Under the pieces are notes generated by a model. It did not search any database and was not told the DNA's origin. It saw only the letters and a program-made list of their open reading frames with translations. The translations under genes and the position numbers were made by a program. This document shows positions 3,492-49,864 of a DNA stretch of 52,110 nt, piece after piece. The stretch lies in NCBI GenBank assembly GCA_020692325.1, contig JAIMKR010000018.1, forward strand, positions 5,924-58,033, in the 5' to 3' direction. Position 1 is the first letter of the stretch, and each line of letters opens with the position of its first letter. Origin of the DNA: Desulfocurvus sp. (lineage in GTDB: Bacteria > Desulfobacterota > Desulfovibrionia > Desulfovibrionales > Desulfovibrionaceae).

Positions 3492-4250
3492 CTACTTGCC
3501 GCCAAAAACCTTCTGCAGAATGGAGGTGGTGCGCTCGGCCGGATTCTTGCGGATGCCCTTCTCCTCCTGCGAGATCATGTAGAACAGGCCGTCCTGGGCC
3601 TTGGTGTTCACATAGGAATCCAGATTGACGCCGTAGGCCTGGGCCGCCGCCGCGGCCACGGGGCTGGCCGTGAGTTTCTTGTAGGCCTTCATCACGCCCA
3701 CGGACTCCATGCTCTTGTCGATGATGGGCTTCATCATCTCGCCGATCTTCTTCCCGCTGGACTTGCGGAAGTACTGTGTGGCCGAGTCGTCGCCGCCGGT
3801 GAGGATGCCTCTGGCGTCGGAGACGCTCATGTTGCGCACGGCGTCACCCAAAATGTTCGCGGCCTGGGGCACGGCCTTCTCCGCCGCACGGTTCATGGCC
3901 AGCACGAAGTCGTCCACCAGCTGGCCCTGGCCGGCCAGACGCAGCGGGGCCTCCAGCCTTTTCAGCGAATCGGGCAGGAGAATTTTGACCGCCTCGTTCC
4001 CGAAATAGCCGTCGGTCTTGCCAAGGTTGTTCACGGCGTTGGTGGTGCCCTTGGCCAGCGCCTCCTTCAGGCCCTTGGTGATGTCCGAATCGGACAGACC
4101 AGCCCCGAGATTCGCAGCGGGCGTGGACGATCCGGCGGAAGCGGCCGGCAACTCCTGCTGCACCTTGTCCAGCACATCGGTCCAGCCAGCCAGCGCCGGA
4201 GTGGCGCACAGGCACAGCCCCATGGCGAGGGGAAGCGCTCGTTTCAACAT
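3492..4250 (-). CDS. DUF4197 domain-containing exported protein
   Basis: A 252-residue protein starting at an ATG behind GGGAGAA. Residues 1-21 are a Sec signal peptide with cleavage expected after ALA (MLKRALPLAMG... ATPALA). The remainder matches DUF4197: GLKEALAKGTTNAVNNLGKT, DGYFGNEAVKILLPDSL and a C-terminal GLFYMISQEEKGIRKNPA. It is predicted to be periplasmic and alpha-helical; the family has no established function. The gene is divergent from the EF-hand gene (start codons 128 bp apart), so both may be driven from the shared intergenic segment. Confidence 0.85.
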   Translation of the reverse strand: MLKRALPLAMGLCLCATPALAGWTDVLDKVQQELPAASAGSSTPAANLGAGLSDSDITKGLKEALAKGTTNAVNNLGKTDGYFGNEAVKILLPDSLKRLEAPLRLAGQGQLVDDFVLAMNRAAEKAVPQAANILGDAVRNMSVSDARGILTGGDDSATQYFRKSSGKKIGEMMKPIIDKSMESVGVMKAYKKLTASPVAAAAAQAYGVNLDSYVNTKAQDGLFYMISQEEKGIRKNPAERTTSILQKVFGGK

Positions 4251-4377
4251 GATTTTTCTCCCGCTGTTTGAGTTTTTGGAGTCCGTGGCCAACGTATCCG
4301 ATGCCGCCTTCGGCGGCAAGAACCTCCCTCCGGCGGGCTGGACCGGATTATGCAAAATTACGGCAGGAGGAAAAATC

Positions 4378-43390: not shown

Positions 43391-44488
43391 TTATCCCCGG
43401 GTGGACAATGAGGCCGCGCTCGTCTGCTGATGCGCCAGGGCCAGGGTTTCCCAATGGAGCGGCTCCTCGCACTTCACGGAGCGCAGCAGCGCCGCGCCCA
43501 CAACCTCGTCCCAGTGCACGGGCGAAATGCCGTCCAGCGGGCTACGGGTGGTCAGATCGGTTTCGGCCAGCACGTGCCCGGCGGGCAGATCGCGCGAGAA
43601 GACGATGCACTTGCGCAGCTTCTTGGCCGAGGCCAATTCCTCGGGAAACACCTTCTTGCCCTTCTGGACCATGCAGGCCTCCACCTCGCGGATCATGCGG
43701 ACGAGCTGGGCCAGTTCGTCCGGCACCAGGGAGGCCTTATGGTCGGTACCCACCTGATTCTTGTCCAGGGTGAAGTGGCGCTCAACCACGCAGGCGCCCA
43801 GGGCCACGGCGGCCACGCTGGGGGCCAGACCGCGTTCGTGCCCGGAGTAACCCACGGGCAGGCCGTAACGCTCACGCAGGGTCTCCATCACCGGCAGGCC
43901 GATCTTTTCCTCGACGCAGGGGTACGAACTGTTGCAATGCAGCAAAACGATGTTGTCGTGCCGGGAGCGGACGACGGAGACGGCTGCGTCGATCTCCTCC
44001 AGGCTGCTCATGCCCGTGCTCATGATGACGGGCAGGCCGCTCTCGGCCACCCGCCGCAGCAGCGGCAGGTTGGTCACGTCGGCGGAGCAGACCTTGATGA
44101 CCGGCATGCCGATGCCGATCATCTCGCCCAGACTCACCTCGTCCCAGGCGGAGGCGAAGAACACCAGCCCCAGCGACTCGGCCAGCTCCTTGAGTTCGGC
44201 CATCTGCTCGGCGGAGAGCTCAAGGGCGCGGCGATGCGCGCCATAGGTGGGGCCGAAGCTGTTGGCCCCGGTGTAGGGGGCCTCGCGGCCAGCGCGGGTC
44301 AGCAGCGACTCCACGTGGCGCTTCTGAAATTTCACGGCCTGCACGCCGGCCCTCGCGGCCTCCTCGACCATGCGCCGGGCCGTCGCCATGTCGCCCTGAT
44401 GATTGTTGCCGACCTCGGCCACAATGAAGCAGGGCTGCCCACGGCCGATTTGGCGGCCATTAGGAAGTGTAATGGTGACGTGCGCCAT
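43391..44488 (-). CDS. neuB: NeuB-family N-acetylneuraminate (or related nonulosonate) synthase
   Basis: A 365-residue enzyme condensing phosphoenolpyruvate with an amino-hexose to a nine-carbon sugar acid. TIM-barrel part: FIVAEVGNNHQGDMATARRM, AVKFQKRHVESLL, FFASAWDEVSL, KVCSADVTNLPLLRRVA and GYSGHERGLAPSVAAVALGA. The C-terminal SAF (antifreeze-like) domain spans about 293-348 (KCIVFSRDLPAGHVL, TRSPLDGISP). The start at 44488 follows GAGG. No neuA, neuC or pseudaminic genes are adjacent; the upstream gene, only 2 bp away, is a winged-helix regulator. The exact product is therefore uncertain (sialic, legionaminic or pseudaminic acid type). Confidence 0.9.
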   Translation of the reverse strand: MAHVTITLPNGRQIGRGQPCFIVAEVGNNHQGDMATARRMVEEAARAGVQAVKFQKRHVESLLTRAGREAPYTGANSFGPTYGAHRRALELSAEQMAELKELAESLGLVFFASAWDEVSLGEMIGIGMPVIKVCSADVTNLPLLRRVAESGLPVIMSTGMSSLEEIDAAVSVVRSRHDNIVLLHCNSSYPCVEEKIGLPVMETLRERYGLPVGYSGHERGLAPSVAAVALGACVVERHFTLDKNQVGTDHKASLVPDELAQLVRMIREVEACMVQKGKKVFPEELASAKKLRKCIVFSRDLPAGHVLAETDLTTRSPLDGISPVHWDEVVGAALLRSVKCEEPLHWETLALAHQQTSAASLSTRG

Positions 44489-44490
44489 GC

Positions 44491-45108
44491 TCACAACCTC
44501 ACGATCTCGAGCCCCCTCCTTGCGGAGACGGGCTGCAGTTGCTGGAATATTTCGTCCTGACGGCCAAAGGAGGTGATAACCACGGCCTGACAATCCACGT
44601 GCTCCAGCACCACGGGCGACGATACGACATAGCCATTGAACAAAGCGCCGTGTTTGTCCACGTCGTTGTCGACGATGGCGACCACCTGAAAGGCGGTGTC
44701 CCGCAGAGCGGAGAGCACAACCTCGCAGGTCTCGGACGCGCCGAACAACACGATCCGTTTACTGCCGCGCCGCTCCAGGCTGCGCAGCTTGGAGAGGATG
44801 AAGTCCTTGATGTTGGTGTACAGGCGGATGGTCTCGCTCGAATAGTCGCTGAACATCTTGCGCCGGCTTTTTTCGCCACCGCTGGTCAGCACGTAGCGGT
44901 AGCTTTTGCCGTTCACCGGCCGGTACTCGATGAGCTCCTGCTCCTGCAAGAGCTTCAGGTACTGATTGACCCTGGCCCCGCTGAGCTTGAGCCTGCGCCC
45001 GAGTTCGAACTGCGACAGTCCCGAATCCTGCGCCAGGGAGTCCAGAATGGCCAGCACCCTGGTCTCCTTGCTGGGTCTGATGTATTTTCCATCCGCGAGC
45101 AGCATCAT
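44491..45108 (-). CDS. Winged-helix DNA-binding protein with C-terminal Rossmann-like sugar/nucleotide domain
   Basis: A 205-residue protein. Residues about 15-75 form a winged helix (KETRVLAILDSLAQDSGLSQ, then ELGRRLKLSGARVNQYLKLL and a wing IEYRPVNGKSYRYVLT), typical of MarR/ArsR-like readers. Residues about 115-200 form a Rossmann-like unit (RIVLFGASETCEVVLSAL, VVAIVDNDVDKHGALFNGY), like the N-terminal domain of sugar-acyltransferases and glycan enzymes. It ends 2 bp before neuB starts, so they form an operon. It probably adjusts expression of surface-glycan genes in response to a sugar nucleotide. The ATG at 45108 has a second ATG next to it. Confidence 0.75.
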   Translation of the reverse strand: MMLLADGKYIRPSKETRVLAILDSLAQDSGLSQFELGRRLKLSGARVNQYLKLLQEQELIEYRPVNGKSYRYVLTSGGEKSRRKMFSDYSSETIRLYTNIKDFILSKLRSLERRGSKRIVLFGASETCEVVLSALRDTAFQVVAIVDNDVDKHGALFNGYVVSSPVVLEHVDCQAVVITSFGRQDEIFQQLQPVSARRGLEIVRL

Positions 45109-45461: not shown

Positions 45462-45502
45462 CCGGCGGCTTTCATCCCCCACGCCCTTTTTTGAGGTTAC
45501 CA

Positions 45503-47230
45503 ATGCCCGAGATCGACCGCCCCTGGCTCAAGCACCACGACCCGACCGTGCCCAACTCTCCGCGTCTTGATCCAAAGCCTCTGTTCCAGTTCCTGCTGGA
45601 CGCCGCGCGGCGCTGGCCCGACAGGGCCGCCATATCCTTTCAGGGGGCGACCATAAGCTATGCCAAACTGGCCAAGCTTTCCGGGCTGGTGGCGGCCAAT
45701 CTGCGCCGCCATGGCCTGCGGCGGGGCGACCGCGTGGCCGTGATGCTGCCCAACACCCCGCAGGCCATCATCGCCTTCTGGGGCGTGCTGCGCGCCGGCG
45801 GCACCGTGGTCTTCACCAATCCGCTGTACATGGAGACGGAAATCGTCCACCAGTTCACCGATTCCGGCGCGCGTTTCCTCATCACCCTCGACTTGCTCTG
45901 GAACAAGATCGCGCCCCTGCGCGACCAGCTGCCCATCGAAAAGTTCTTCGTCACCAGCATGGCCGACGGGCTGCGCTTTCCGCTGAGCCTGCTCTACCGG
46001 CTGCGCGCCTGGCGCGAAGGGCACACCGGACAGGTCCCCTACGACGGCAAGACCGTGCACACCTGGGGCGCGCTCATGGGCGGACTCAGCACCTTCACGG
46101 CCGAGGGGCTCATTCCGCAGAAGGATCTGGCGTTGCTGCAGTACACCGGCGGCACCACCGGGCTCGCCAAGGGCTGCATGATCACCCACGCCAACATCTG
46201 CGCCAACACCCAGCAAATTCTTTCCGTGCTGCCCGGCCTGGGCGACAAGCCGGAGACGTTCCTCGGCATCCTCCCCTATTTCCACATCTACGGCCTCACC
46301 GTGTCGCTCAATCTGTGCACGGCCGTGGGAGCCACGCAGATTCCCTTCGCGCGCTACTCGCCGCTGGACGTGCTCAAAACCATCGAGAAGGAGCGCCCCA
46401 CGGTGTTCCCCGGCGCGCCCTCGGTGTACATCTCGCTGTTGCAGCAAAAGAACGTGGGCCAGTACGACCTGCGCTCCATCCGCTACTGCGTGTCCGGCTC
46501 GGCCCCCATGCCGGTGGAGTGGTTCGACCAGTTCCGCAACGCCACGGGCGCGCACATCTGCGAGGGCTATGGTCTTTCCGAGGCCAGCCCGGTGACGCAC
46601 ATCAACCCGCTCAACGGCGTGGCCAAGCACGGCTCCATCGGCCTGCCCCTGCCGGGAACCGACGCCAAGATCGTGGACATGGACGTGGGCGGTCCCCCGC
46701 TGCCCCCGGGCAAGATGGGCGAGCTGGCGGTGCGCGGACCGCAGGTCATGGCCGGCTACTTCAACCGCCCGGACGACACCGCCGACGTCTTGCGCAACGG
46801 CTGGCTCTACACCGGCGACATCGCCTACATGGACGAGGAAGGCTACTTCTTCATCGTGGACCGCAAGAAGGACCTCATCATCAGCTCCGGGTACAACATC
46901 TACCCGCGCGAGGTGGACGAGGTGCTGCACCAACACCCCAAGGTGCGGGAGGCCGTGGCCGTCGGCATCCCCTGCGACACCCGCGGTGAGGTGGTCAAGG
47001 CCTACATCGTGCCCAAGCCGGGCGAGAAGCCGACCAAGGCCGAGATCATCGCCTTCTGTCGGCAGAAGCTGGCCAACTACAAGGTGCCGCGCCACGTGGA
47101 GTTCCGCGAGAGCCTGCCCAAGACCATGGTCGGCAAGGTGCTGCGGCGGGCCCTGCGCGCCGAGGAGGATCGCCGCGCCCAGGGGTGCGGCGTGCCGCCC
47201 GTGCAGGACGACGCCAGCGACGCGGCCTGA
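45503..47230 (+). CDS. Long-chain fatty acid--CoA ligase (AMP-forming)
   Basis: A 575-residue ANL-superfamily enzyme. The ATP-loop is YTGGTTGLAKG at 214-224, followed by GYGLSEASPVTHINP, LYTGDIAYMDEEGYFFIVDR and RKKDLIISSGYNIYPREVDE, then the catalytic lysine motif PKTMVGKVLRR. It activates fatty acids to acyl-CoA, peripheral to the inner membrane. The ATG at 45503 follows GAGG. Its AT-rich 3' flank starts exactly after the stop codon, where an acquired gene begins (47231). The natural terminator may have been displaced to 48772. Confidence 0.92.
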   Translation: MPEIDRPWLKHHDPTVPNSPRLDPKPLFQFLLDAARRWPDRAAISFQGATISYAKLAKLSGLVAANLRRHGLRRGDRVAVMLPNTPQAIIAFWGVLRAGGTVVFTNPLYMETEIVHQFTDSGARFLITLDLLWNKIAPLRDQLPIEKFFVTSMADGLRFPLSLLYRLRAWREGHTGQVPYDGKTVHTWGALMGGLSTFTAEGLIPQKDLALLQYTGGTTGLAKGCMITHANICANTQQILSVLPGLGDKPETFLGILPYFHIYGLTVSLNLCTAVGATQIPFARYSPLDVLKTIEKERPTVFPGAPSVYISLLQQKNVGQYDLRSIRYCVSGSAPMPVEWFDQFRNATGAHICEGYGLSEASPVTHINPLNGVAKHGSIGLPLPGTDAKIVDMDVGGPPLPPGKMGELAVRGPQVMAGYFNRPDDTADVLRNGWLYTGDIAYMDEEGYFFIVDRKKDLIISSGYNIYPREVDEVLHQHPKVREAVAVGIPCDTRGEVVKAYIVPKPGEKPTKAEIIAFCRQKLANYKVPRHVEFRESLPKTMVGKVLRRALRAEEDRRAQGCGVPPVQDDASDAA

Positions 47231-48768
47231 TTTTTCTTTTACTTTTTGTTTGCCACCCCCTGCTAAATACTTTACCATATATCATTATTCATATTGGGGG
47301 TAGTACAGATATGGCAGAAAGCAAAGAAATCAGGCTGCTTAAAAACAAATGGATCCGAGGTGATTCTTGGCCAAAGCGTCTAGAATGGCTTGAAATATCG
47401 GGGTTGCGAGGTTGGACGGGCCAACACATTGACTTTACTTTCCCCATTTTAGCGCTCGTTGGTGAAAATGGAGCAGGCAAAAGTACAGTTCTTCAAGCAA
47501 TTGCAGCGATTTACCGTCCAAAAGAGGGGGAACGAGGACACTTCGCTTCAGATTTCTTCCCGGATACCCCTTGGGACAAAGTGGAAGGGGTAACTCTTAA
47601 ATATTCTACTCGTGAAGGGGCTACGTCCAGTGACGGCAGTGTACGGAAACCTACTAAACGATGGCTTGGGAATAGAGACAGAAAAATTCGTACAGTAAAA
47701 TATATAGACCTAAGGAGAATTCAACCCGTCCCTGCTCGCGTGGGCTACCAGCGGCTAGCCAAATCTGTAAATCAAGAGGTCAGCTCCAAAAGTTTTGATC
47801 AAACTAATTTGCTGCGGTTATCAGAGATAATGGGAAAACAATATGAGCAGGCAAAAATGTCTGTTACGAATATTGATGCGGTGAGAGAGGTTCCTGTTAT
47901 CCAGCAACACGGAATAAGTTATTCTGGATTTCATCAAGGCGCTGGCGAAACCACAATTACAGAGCTACTAGAGATTCAACTTCCTAAATATAGCGTTGTT
48001 CTCATTGATGAAATTGAGTCTTCTTTACATCCAAGAGCCCAACGACGTTTGATACGTGATTTAGCAAACTTTGCACGGATTAATGAACTTCAAGTTATTG
48101 TTACAACCCACTCTCCATATGTTCTTGAAGAACTGCCACCTGAAGGAAGAATTTTAATTTTCAACGGGCATAATGGTCGTAACGTTGTAAGAGGAGTTAG
48201 CGCTTTTTTTGCTATGACACAAATGGATGATGAAAACCATCCTGAATGCGATCTCTATGTTGAGGATGAAAGAGCTAGCACTTTGCTTAGAGAAGTCTTG
48301 ACTAAAAAATCGGCAGAGATATCACGAAAATGCAGAATTATCCCCGTCGGTTCCGCAGCTGTAGGAAAGTCACTTGGGCTAATGGCTTCGGAGAAAAGAT
48401 TTCCTACTCCATCCTGCATCTACCTTGATGGAGATCAAGACCCTGCAAAAGGTTGCAACATCCTTCCTGGTGGAGACTCTCCTGAACGTGTTGTTTTTGG
48501 TGCCTTACAGGAAATTGGTTTCGAAGGAGTGGCCCAACGCATTGGCCGTAATCACTCTTCAGTCGTGGATGCTTGTGTCCAGGCTATGACTCTTTCAGAA
48601 GCCCACAAATGGGTAAATCACGCCGCTGACGCTTTAGATGTTGGTGGTGATATTCTTTGGAATGCTTTATGCGGAATATGGGTGGATCTGTGTCTAACTG
48701 ATGTGCAAAGTGCAGCAGTGATACAACCAATTATTGATGAACTCGCCACTGCCGAGTAGCAAACAATC
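47231..48768. mobile_element. AT-rich one-gene island (presumed horizontal acquisition)
   Basis: Base composition changes abruptly at both ends: the AT-rich run TTTTTCTTTTACTTTTTG starts at 47231 directly after the acyl-CoA synthetase stop, and GC-rich sequence resumes after 48768. The island contains only the ATPase-TOPRIM gene. Codon use includes many AGA, ATA and TTA codons, unlike every neighbour. No integrase, transposase, inverted terminal repeats or obvious target duplication is seen, so the mechanism is unknown. Confidence 0.65.
47311..48759 (+). CDS. AAA/ABC-type ATPase with TOPRIM-like C-terminal domain (OLD-like, putative defence protein)
   Basis: A 482-residue protein starting at ATG 47311. 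ABC/SMC-type ATPase head: Walker A GENGAGKS at 51-58, signature QGAGET at about 209-214, Walker B VVLIDEIESSLHPRAQ (D233, E234) and H-loop TTHSP (H267). From about 313 a TOPRIM-like domain: YVEDE with E318, then CIYLDGDQDPAKGC (D373, D375) and LPGGDSPERVVF. This order is that of OLD-family nucleases and related phage-defence ATPases (GajA- or PtuA-like), but the protein is shorter than classical OLD and lacks a long coiled-coil insert. No HNH, UvrD or retron partner is adjacent. AT-rich and foreign in character. Defence function is inference. Confidence 0.75.
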   Translation: MAESKEIRLLKNKWIRGDSWPKRLEWLEISGLRGWTGQHIDFTFPILALVGENGAGKSTVLQAIAAIYRPKEGERGHFASDFFPDTPWDKVEGVTLKYSTREGATSSDGSVRKPTKRWLGNRDRKIRTVKYIDLRRIQPVPARVGYQRLAKSVNQEVSSKSFDQTNLLRLSEIMGKQYEQAKMSVTNIDAVREVPVIQQHGISYSGFHQGAGETTITELLEIQLPKYSVVLIDEIESSLHPRAQRRLIRDLANFARINELQVIVTTHSPYVLEELPPEGRILIFNGHNGRNVVRGVSAFFAMTQMDDENHPECDLYVEDERASTLLREVLTKKSAEISRKCRIIPVGSAAVGKSLGLMASEKRFPTPSCIYLDGDQDPAKGCNILPGGDSPERVVFGALQEIGFEGVAQRIGRNHSSVVDACVQAMTLSEAHKWVNHAADALDVGGDILWNALCGIWVDLCLTDVQSAAVIQPIIDELATAE

Positions 48769-48771
48769 ATG

Positions 48772-48799
48772 GCCCCGCCGGAAACGACGGGGCTTTTTT
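48772..48799 (+). terminator. Intrinsic terminator (probably original to the acyl-CoA synthetase gene)
   Basis: GCCCCG (48772-48777) pairs with CGGGGC (48788-48793), followed by TTTTTTA. It has host-like GC content, unlike the island in front of it, so it may have belonged to the acyl-CoA synthetase transcript before the insertion. Confidence 0.8.
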
Positions 48800-48911
48800 A
48801 TCGCAAAGCCCAATCGTCACGCCCGCGCCCCCGCCCTGTCACGACGGCGGGGCATGGTGTTCCGCGACGGGCTCCCGCCCGCCCAACCGCTTCCACCACT
48901 AGGAGGACGCC

Positions 48912-49097
48912 ATGCTCCGACTGCTGCCCAATCCCAACGCCGAAAAGTCCGACAAGGGCCCCAAGCCCTCGGCCCTGGTCTACACGCTACTGCGCCACGG
49001 GCGAGGGCTGACCAGCGTCGAGGCCGAACGCCGTCTGCGCCAATGCCTGGCCGCCATTCGCCCGGCGGCCGACTCCGGTCCCTCCTCCGCCGCCTAG
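48912..49097 (+). CDS. Small hypothetical protein (61 residues)
   Basis: Begins MLRLLPNPNAEKSDKGPKPS and continues ALVYTLLRHGRGLTSVEAERRLRQCLAAIR, ending in an Ala/Ser/Pro-rich tail. The ATG at 48912 sits 5 bp after a perfect AGGAGG, which is the main reason to accept it. Composition is host-like. I do not recognise the family. It could be a short host gene or a spurious frame; no terminator or partner decides it. Confidence 0.5.
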   Translation: MLRLLPNPNAEKSDKGPKPSALVYTLLRHGRGLTSVEAERRLRQCLAAIRPAADSGPSSAA

Positions 49098-49207
49098 CTG
49101 TCGAGCCGCAAGGCATCGTTCACAATCCGATTGATTCGGACCGAATGAACAACCGCCCTTGACTTCACCTTCAGCCCCCGCGCCGGCGCAGCGCCGGTGC
49201 CGACGAC

Positions 49208-49240
49208 GAAAAAGCCCCCCGTCCCGAATGGGGCGGAGGG
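49208..49240 (-). terminator. Intrinsic terminator after the cyclophilin gene
   Basis: On the minus strand a GC-rich stem (GCCCTCCG ... GACGGGGGGC, with a mismatch) is followed by TTTTTC. It lies just past the cyclophilin stop. Confidence 0.7.
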
Positions 49241-49267
49241 CCATGGCGTCGATTCGTCGTCGCGCGA

Positions 49268-49864
49268 CTACTGCGAAATGATGGTGACCTTCTTGATGAC
49301 GATGGGCGTGACCGGCACGTCGGCGAACATGCCATGCCGGCCCGTGGGCGCGCCCTTGATCTCATCGACCACGCGCTTGCCTTCCACGACCTTGCCGAAC
49401 ACGGCATAGCCCCAGCCCATTTCGGACTTGCCCCAGTAGTTGAGGGAGGGGTTGTTCTTCACGTTGATGAAGAACTGGTCCGTGGCGGAGTTCGGATCCG
49501 AGGTGCGGGCCATGGCCACGGTGTACAGCTCATTTTTGAGCCCGTTGTCGGCCTCGTTCCTGATGGCCTTGTCGGTGGGGCGCTCCTGCATGTTCACATC
49601 ATACCCGCCGCCCTGAATCATGAAGCCGTTGATGACGCGGTGGAAAATCGTGCCGTCGTAGTGCCCCTTGCGCGCGTAGCGCAGAAAGTTCTCCACGGTC
49701 ACCGGGGCGGCCTTCTTGTTCAGCTCGAGCACGATGTCGCCCTTGTTGGTCTCCAGCTTCACCAGGATCCTGCCGGGCTCGGCCTTCTGGGCCAGGGCCG
49801 GCGCGGCCAGGGCCAGCACGAGGGCGGCGGCCAGCATCACACGGAAAAAGCGCTGCATCTTCAT
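49268..49864 (-). CDS. ppiA: Peptidyl-prolyl cis-trans isomerase, cyclophilin type (periplasmic)
   Basis: A 198-residue protein with a Sec signal peptide (hydrophobic core LAAALVLALAAPALA, cleavage before QKAEPG). The cyclophilin core follows: FHRVINGFMIQGGGYD, AMARTSDPNSATDQFFINV and AVFGKVVEGKRVVDEI. It assists folding in the periplasm. Two start codons are possible: 49864 and 49858. The AAGGAG is only 2 bp from the first but 8 bp from the second, so initiation at 49858 (196 residues) may be the real one. Confidence 0.92.
   Translation of the reverse strand: MKMQRFFRVMLAAALVLALAAPALAQKAEPGRILVKLETNKGDIVLELNKKAAPVTVENFLRYARKGHYDGTIFHRVINGFMIQGGGYDVNMQERPTDKAIRNEADNGLKNELYTVAMARTSDPNSATDQFFINVKNNPSLNYWGKSEMGWGYAVFGKVVEGKRVVDEIKGAPTGRHGMFADVPVTPIVIKKVTIISQ

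Follow-up and report, generated by a model that had tools for sequence, protein, structure and literature searches.

Single-gene defence by an ATPase fused to a TOPRIM domain is already in print, in the form of HEC-04 and IbfA (available text of PMC12111858). As far as that text goes, HEC-04, which it attributes to Payne et al., defends against T4 and T5 and not against T7 or lambda, while IbfA reduces the UAB_Phi20 phage yield and makes the infection abortive, early phage transcripts going up and late ones down (PMC12111858). The same source describes ibfA as part of a plasmid operon with proQ, gives 518 aa for its product and names plasmid R64 as a carrier. Whether a lone ATPase-TOPRIM protein (class 1 OLD) can give broad defence was still an open question in the accessible part of a 2023 review (PMC10568477). 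The protein described here is HEC-04-like, and thus of a kind already known. It is encoded in a stretch of 52,110 nucleotides from Desulfocurvus sp. (contig JAIMKR010000018.1), analysed as a whole and called the window below; unless a locus is named, coordinates refer to it.

A lone foreign gene behind fadD

The lone gene (47311-48759, plus strand) encodes a HEC-04-like ATPase-TOPRIM protein of 482 aa. Its likely start is the ATG at 47311, with GGGGG ahead of it at 47296-47300; a 524-aa version from a GTG start was rejected, as that GTG lies within fadD. The first-pass annotation had described a single gene of foreign composition, and three measures bear this out. The gene had a GC content of 44.1%, whereas 954 overlapping segments of equal length from the rest of the window averaged 66.6 ± 2.5% (z -8.9). 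Its GC3 was 33%, compared with 92% for fadD and for the cyclophilin gene, and its tetranucleotide distance (0.79) exceeded the maximum of 0.37 among 239 other segments. The 80-bp leader before the start codon displayed 32.5% GC. It holds a possible, weak sigma-70-type promoter (TTGCCA-17-TACCAT, 47250-47278, plus strand, 9 of 12 consensus matches), and the number of promoter-like sites in the leader was not above that of shuffles.

The foreign one-gene insert extends from the fadD stop to the old fadD terminator (47231-48769, plus strand, 43.4% GC). Upstream lies fadD itself, an AMP-binding acyl-CoA ligase gene (45491-47230, plus strand; Pfam AMP-binding, 300.7 bits), and downstream lie a GC-rich hairpin with a T-run (48771-48799, plus strand), presumed to have terminated fadD originally and to serve the insert now, and a cyclophilin-type isomerase gene (49268-49864, minus strand; Pfam Pro_isomerase, 157.6 bits). 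A fadD orthologue was present in 15 of 15 same-genus genomes, own genome included. The defence gene was absent from all 14 sister fadD loci, compared over up to about 1.5 kb per side, so that the insert boundaries, for which a comparison with sister strains had been proposed, hold. Foreign composition together with absence from the sister loci points to horizontal acquisition of the gene. That the terminator beyond the insert belonged to the acyl-CoA synthetase gene had also been judged probable at first pass, and it is well supported that the hairpin once ended fadD, since ten sister loci (L031-L035, L037-L040 and L044) carry, as judged by eye, a similar GC-rich hairpin with a T-run about 20-50 nt past the fadD stop. 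Among the other four, L041 has a run of N at this place and L036, L042 and L043 displayed no clear hairpin by eye. The order fadD to cyclophilin was kept in 7 of the 14 sister loci.

Two further observations concern this junction. At L042 (sister genome G002), a different small gene, apparently for a secreted protein, lies directly 3' of fadD, and the junction therefore varies among species. Between fadD and the cyclophilin gene of the window, a 61-aa ORF with no Pfam match (48912-49097) has counterparts of 45-65% identity in six of the 14 sister loci.

The insert (47231-48769) contains neither a transposase nor an integrase gene, and no target duplication was found around it, the longest word common to both ends being 5 nt. 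A weak 11-bp inverted repeat, TTGTTTGCYAC, bounds the insert (left arm 47246-47256, plus strand; right arm 48756-48766; 10 of 11 positions complementary). An equally good repeat was obtained in 7 of 5000 shuffles of the 40-nt end segments, but the repeat was chosen after the fact, and as a mark of the insert ends it is only a lead.

The gene stands alone without an obligatory partner, as HEC-04 does, and the neighbours scanned were housekeeping genes. The scan (Pfam, PADLOC) covered ten ORFs between 40253 and 52037, namely HTH, fadD, cyclophilin, CobB/CbiA, TPP-enzyme and CheW-REC genes and four ORFs with no Pfam hit, two of them shadow frames; its sole PADLOC match was LmuC, at 24 bits, to the HTH gene. 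The ORF at 43394-44593 (minus strand), outside the ten scanned, encodes a sialic-acid-synthase-type protein. No Rfam match at E <= 0.1 was obtained in 46800-49300. The lack of usual partner genes that had been remarked at first pass was confirmed among the neighbours scanned: Gabija was rejected with no UvrD-like helicase gajB, Septu with no HNH nuclease ptuB, and a retron with no reverse transcriptase and no Rfam hit, retron ncRNAs being possibly missing from Rfam. Across relatives, when the 697 ORFs flanking the gene at 21 loci were compared with one another by blastp, no neighbour was shared by every locus; those that recurred were prophage genes, an IS1-like transposase and one more small ORF in L022 and L023.

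Family, predicted fold and proposed action

The search of the protein against OLD, GajA, PtuA and other defence profiles, recommended with the first-pass annotation, gave HEC-04 as the best match, over the full length. The PADLOC HEC-04 profile (PDLC04149) aligned to residues 7-459 over profile positions 11-472 of 494 (171.7 bits, E 5.6e-51) and outscored every other defence model, the next ones (retron I-B ATPase-Toprim, AriA, PtuA) reaching at most 80.2 bits. On the same scale, HEC-04 proper scored 706 (L004) and 626 bits (L045), the IbfA-type protein L046 137.7 bits, L048, L049, L051, L003 and L006 143-167 bits, and L050 105 bits. The phage phiNP protein L052 was rejected as a member, with 57.4 bits for HEC-04 against 71.4 for PtuA. 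L046, from a Salmonella plasmid, has 518 aa, an adjoining ProQ-family gene and 97% identity to a copy on R64, which fits the description of ibfA (PMC12111858, text as available). Identity of the window protein to IbfA and HEC-04 proper was only 28.6-29.0% (two proteins compared), and its function may therefore differ.

A tree built from 28 proteins set the window subclade apart from HEC-04 proper, IbfA and the others (support 97/95). The window protein did not group with the copies from Desulfovibrio, and the tree leaves its own position inside the subclade open. The long-branched phage protein L052 also falls in the subclade, where it is to be ignored. The subclade alignment held 20 rows for 17 distinct proteins, the three duplicates being dropped from the tree; the near-duplicate L069 was left out of this alignment, and the frameshifted L029 of all alignments. 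The latter, a Neisseriaceae copy (L029 5977-7433), is split by a frame change, which may reflect either decay of the gene or an error in sequencing.

The predicted structure agreed with the two domains read from the sequence at first pass, an SMC/ABC ATPase head and a compact TOPRIM-like domain. In the AlphaFold2 model of the whole protein (mean pLDDT 83.7, pTM 0.57), residues 17-306 (47359-48228, plus strand) form a predicted SMC/Rad50/PtuA-type ATPase head, with VIA-align Z of 15-18 to SMC, Rad50 and PtuA heads. By motif reading, Walker A is GENGAGKS (47461-47484, plus strand), while Walker B (VVLIDEIE, residues 229-236) and TTHS (residues 265-268) are also within the head. Residues 313-482 (48247-48756, plus strand) make up the predicted TOPRIM domain, for which the C-terminal 187 residues were modelled alone (pLDDT 90.0, pTM 0.83). 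Structurally, the domain matched PARIS AriB 8ux9_A best (Z 9.9, 157 aligned residues, 3.9 Å), then a second AriB entry (Z 8.9), OLD (8.3-8.7) and GajA (6.1-7.2); outside these families, the hypothetical protein 2p62 reached 6.6, retron Eco2 5.9 and 5.1, and all others at most 5.7. With Foldseek, the top five matches of the domain were all OLD C-terminal regions (probability 1.00, E 5.6e-3 to 2.4e-2), and viral predicted structures returned general ATPases and giant-virus ATP-dependent endonucleases. Since the C-terminal domain had no Pfam match up to E 1, TOPRIM and DUF4435 included, and no convincing PDB match by sequence, its assignment rests on structure and motifs; PARIS was rejected by sequence on the same search, with no AriB/DUF4435 match. 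Taken together, the models confirm a predicted TOPRIM fold nearest PARIS AriB and OLD nucleases, and the alternative considered beforehand, a domain with no such fold, did not occur.

The putative metal residues E318 (48262-48264), D373 and D375 (48427-48435), all on the plus strand, had been numbered exactly at first pass. Together with D319 they were invariant throughout the subclade alignment (20 of 20 rows, 17 distinct) and among the diverse relatives compared (19 of 19). E392 (48484-48486, plus strand, in P391-E392) presumably corresponds to the second metal ligand in TOPRIM domains of the OLD type; it was kept in 18 of the 19 diverse relatives, and P391 in all 19.

Family and fold argue that this is probably a self-sufficient defence gene of the HEC-04/IbfA kind, horizontally acquired, whose ATPase head and TOPRIM effector would act by abortive infection; for this particular copy we infer defence by analogy. 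Within a single polypeptide, the SMC/Rad50-type head would serve as sensor and switch and the TOPRIM nuclease-type domain as effector. The head would dimerise or assemble further and keep the TOPRIM domain idle, until a phage product or DNA state triggers its release; a metal-dependent nuclease would then cut nucleic acid, either DNA, as OLD, or RNA, as PARIS AriB, and the infection would abort. Expression would probably start from a promoter in the gene's own 80-bp leader and end at the borrowed fadD terminator. High ATP turnover of the head is disfavoured, which counts against the head as an active ATPase.

Two other modes of action, both tentative, make different use of the same structural matches. 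The TOPRIM domain may degrade incoming phage DNA directly, in a restriction-like manner and without killing or arresting the host, as a class 1 OLD would. This draws on the OLD regions that fill the Foldseek matches of the domain and on class 1 OLD being single genes with DNA exonuclease activity outside defence islands (PMC10568477, in the part accessible), but IbfA is reported to be abortive (PMC12111858, likewise), and the OLD profile reached only 57.5 bits against 171.7 for HEC-04. The comparison with OLD-family nucleases made at first pass thus stood for the fold, which is near OLD, and not for the sequence, which is far nearer HEC-04.

AriB, the best structural match of the domain, cuts tRNA. 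It is equally doubtful, though conceivable, that the protein is a single-chain analogue of PARIS, in which an AriA-like head would hold an AriB-like nuclease and a phage-protein trigger would lead to RNA cleavage and growth stop. As far as the text at hand of PMC9122126 goes, ariA and ariB are also found as one-gene fusions. However, no DUF4435 match was obtained, the AriA profiles reached only 73-80 bits, and the Z gap between AriB and OLD is little more than 1, the second AriB entry tying with OLD.

Relatives and their mobile contexts

Copies of the gene were scattered among relatives. Some match at E <= 0.001 was found in 33 of 59 genomes of the genus, family and order (own included), mostly to short ATPase motifs. 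A clear homologue (E <= 1e-24) was present in only 4 of the 58 others, at 23-33% identity, and the core gene of host-like composition in all relatives, named at first pass as a refuting outcome, did not occur. Each of these four homologues (L003-L006) is a lone, divergent HEC-04-type gene with a GC content of 38-47%, next to ORFs with 59-73%; their surroundings differ, and they have no IS1-like ends. Over the phylum, 6 of 395 genomes (own included) matched at E <= 1e-40, among them G248, whose close copy (38% GC) has two small low-GC ORFs at its sides and sits between genes of 67 and 65% GC. Close chromosomal relatives (49-55% identity) came from eight loci in Pseudomonadota, Planctomycetota, Acidobacteriota and Desulfovibrio MAGs (one contig scan). 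Distant relatives lie in defence-type contexts: on plasmids, the HEC-04-type genes of L048 and L051 adjoin Vsr/C5-methyltransferase/DUF3883 genes and a type I restriction system, respectively, and L050 lies beside an integrase and SIR2.

On viral contigs, relatives occupied a slot behind the CI repressor. Viral loci from IMG/VR numbered 24, 17 collected with the subclade alignment and seven with one HEC-04 protein, and 23 of them show the upstream side (L054 starts at the gene); the loci are not independent of one another. On 20 of the 23 readable contigs, namely all 20 with a full-length gene, the gene is preceded by a same-strand repressor of the CI type (HTH and/or S24 peptidase domain), at a distance of about 30 to 1460 bp: L055-L066 and L069 in the subclade set and L081-L087 (seven of seven) in the second set. 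In the subclade set, ten repressors were identified by Pfam and three by near-identity, L060 being identical to L059 over 7510 bp, L069 99.7% identical to L055, and the repressor of L066 98% identical to that of L056. At L061 and L063 the nearest upstream ORF had no match and the repressor was one or two ORFs further. The three exceptions hold partial genes, L067 and L070 being remnants and L068 being cut by the contig end, and all three were counted against the slot. They displayed no upstream ORF like any of 14 repressors (blastp, best E 0.096; a weak test without Pfam), and the largest plus-strand upstream ORF of L068 had no convincing PDB match. By our estimate, the 1.5 kb or less behind the repressor amount to no more than a few per cent of a genome of 45 kb. 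On L067, a tyrosine-recombinase-like ORF (3768-4313, minus strand, by eye) was noticed about 0.7 kb upstream of the truncated defence gene.

In lambda, rexAB lies in the region between cI and n, which is described as a mosaic hotspot (PMC8585504, portion available). L055 shares a 1657-bp segment that includes the gene with L056 and with L066, at 99.5% identity; just after the segment these contigs were about 85% alike and just before it nothing over 300 bp matched, a pattern that looks as after cassette exchange. Other genes occupied the same place after the repressor, namely a Panacea-domain gene with a small ORF in an Enterobacter plasmid record (L077 4458-5454) and a DUF7946/DUF7947 gene in a DH5alpha prophage (L078 3092-3958), which we take to be phi80; both are candidate exclusion genes. 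Among complete E. coli genomes, only the flank of the L055 stretch was found (74 of 5426), never the gene.

This position could suit a Rex-like prophage regulatory or superinfection protein, acting on the lysis-lysogeny switch or on early transcription, with nuclease activity secondary or absent, a reading that we hold unlikely. It takes in the relatives downstream of CI on viral contigs, where rexAB and bstA lie (PMC8585504, as far as available), the raised early and lowered late phage transcripts under IbfA (PMC12111858, in the same limits) and the bias of the lambda switch reported for RexA in the literature at hand. On the other side, no repressor was noticed beside the window, plasmid and chromosomal copies examined, and a protein with a purely regulatory role would have no need of the catalytic acids, which are invariant.

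In three of the eight close chromosomal relatives (L022, L023 and L025), the gene was cargo of an IS1-like transposon. The genes for the IS1-like transposase and for the defence protein are divergently oriented, with 70-240 bp between them, and inverted ends (GGTAGTG..T[TA]TGAA) enclose both genes together. The units cover L022 4863-8482, with a 6-bp target duplication and also a PemK-type toxin gene, L023 87-3453 and L025 4709-7797, the latter two with a perfect 8-bp target duplication. The transposase of L023 scored above the cut-off of the IS1 profile (28.4 bits, cut-off 24.1) and the other two below (22.6 and 21.3), the ORF of L025 being short. As L022, L023 and L025 form no single clade in the tree, the sequences suggest either that the gene was captured more than once or that the association is old and has been lost in part. 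The other five close chromosomal relatives had no IS1-like ends within the DNA searched, and a generic inverted-repeat test on them (L024 and L026-L029) gave no score above shuffles. The window copy likewise displayed no IS1-like transposase, no GGTAGTG..TTTGAA ends and no target duplication.

A gene outside defence, either a domesticated DNA-metabolism or cell-cycle protein, like the archaeal OLD-type ATPase reported to be not antiviral and needed for cell-cycle progression (PMC12796447, text in part), or a silent passenger, is improbable given the sporadic distribution (4 of 58 other relatives, 6 of 395 phylum genomes), the mobile contexts and the foreign composition.

The reading of a self-sufficient, horizontally acquired defence gene can be extended to the whole HEC-04/IbfA superfamily, with what we judge to be about even chances. 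It would be a nomadic, self-sufficient abortive-infection gene with two vehicles, the rexAB slot behind CI of lambdoid-type prophages, where it would be expressed in lysogens, and small IS1-like cargo transposons, through which it would arrive as a solitary AT-rich gene on chromosomes of several phyla; the window copy would represent such a landing with its vehicle lost. The repressor slot predicts both the time of expression (lysogeny) and the targets (superinfecting phages), and the IS1-like cargo units would be a direct route for a single defence gene to hop between unrelated bacteria. The repressor-slot and IS1-like cargo patterns for HEC-04/IbfA relatives appear unreported: the literature on repressor-slot genes and on anti-phage passengers of insertion sequences, as far as its text was available, made no mention of HEC-04 or IbfA. 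With regard to the question of class 1 OLD, HEC-04 and IbfA suggest that a lone ATPase-TOPRIM protein can act, and the subclade supplies one-gene representatives from several phyla.

Comparison with described systems

Lambda RexAB and BstA of Salmonella prophages share with the relatives on viral contigs the slot downstream of CI, whereas the window copy itself is outside a prophage; this likeness is one of position, with no sequence kinship detected. GajA has the same domain logic and TOPRIM fold but differs by its low profile score (60.8 bits) and by the GajB helicase, which has no counterpart near the window gene. In PARIS, an ATPase is likewise paired with a TOPRIM protein, and the fold of the window domain is AriB-like, OLD being nearly as good; PARIS nevertheless consists of two proteins or a fusion of them (PMC9122126, text at hand), and the window protein has no DUF4435 match. 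Class 1 OLD (P2 Old, T. scotoductus OLD) is alike in domain logic, TOPRIM fold and single-gene arrangement, yet the best sequence match is not OLD.

IbfA of the IncI1 plasmids (pUA1135, R64) has ATPase and TOPRIM in one chain, as the window protein does, and abortive infection is reported for it (PMC12111858, as above); it differs by its other clade, its plasmid operon with proQ and its 518 aa. The name HEC-04 comes from embedding in the Hma system, and no Hma match was found in the ten neighbouring ORFs of the window, the plasmid IbfA type being likewise not embedded in an Hma system. HEC-04 proper belongs to a separate clade (97/95) and scores 626-706 bits on its profile, against 171.7 for the window protein. 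Both are nonetheless single genes for an ABC-type ATPase fused to a TOPRIM domain, with a full-length profile match and the same catalytic motifs.
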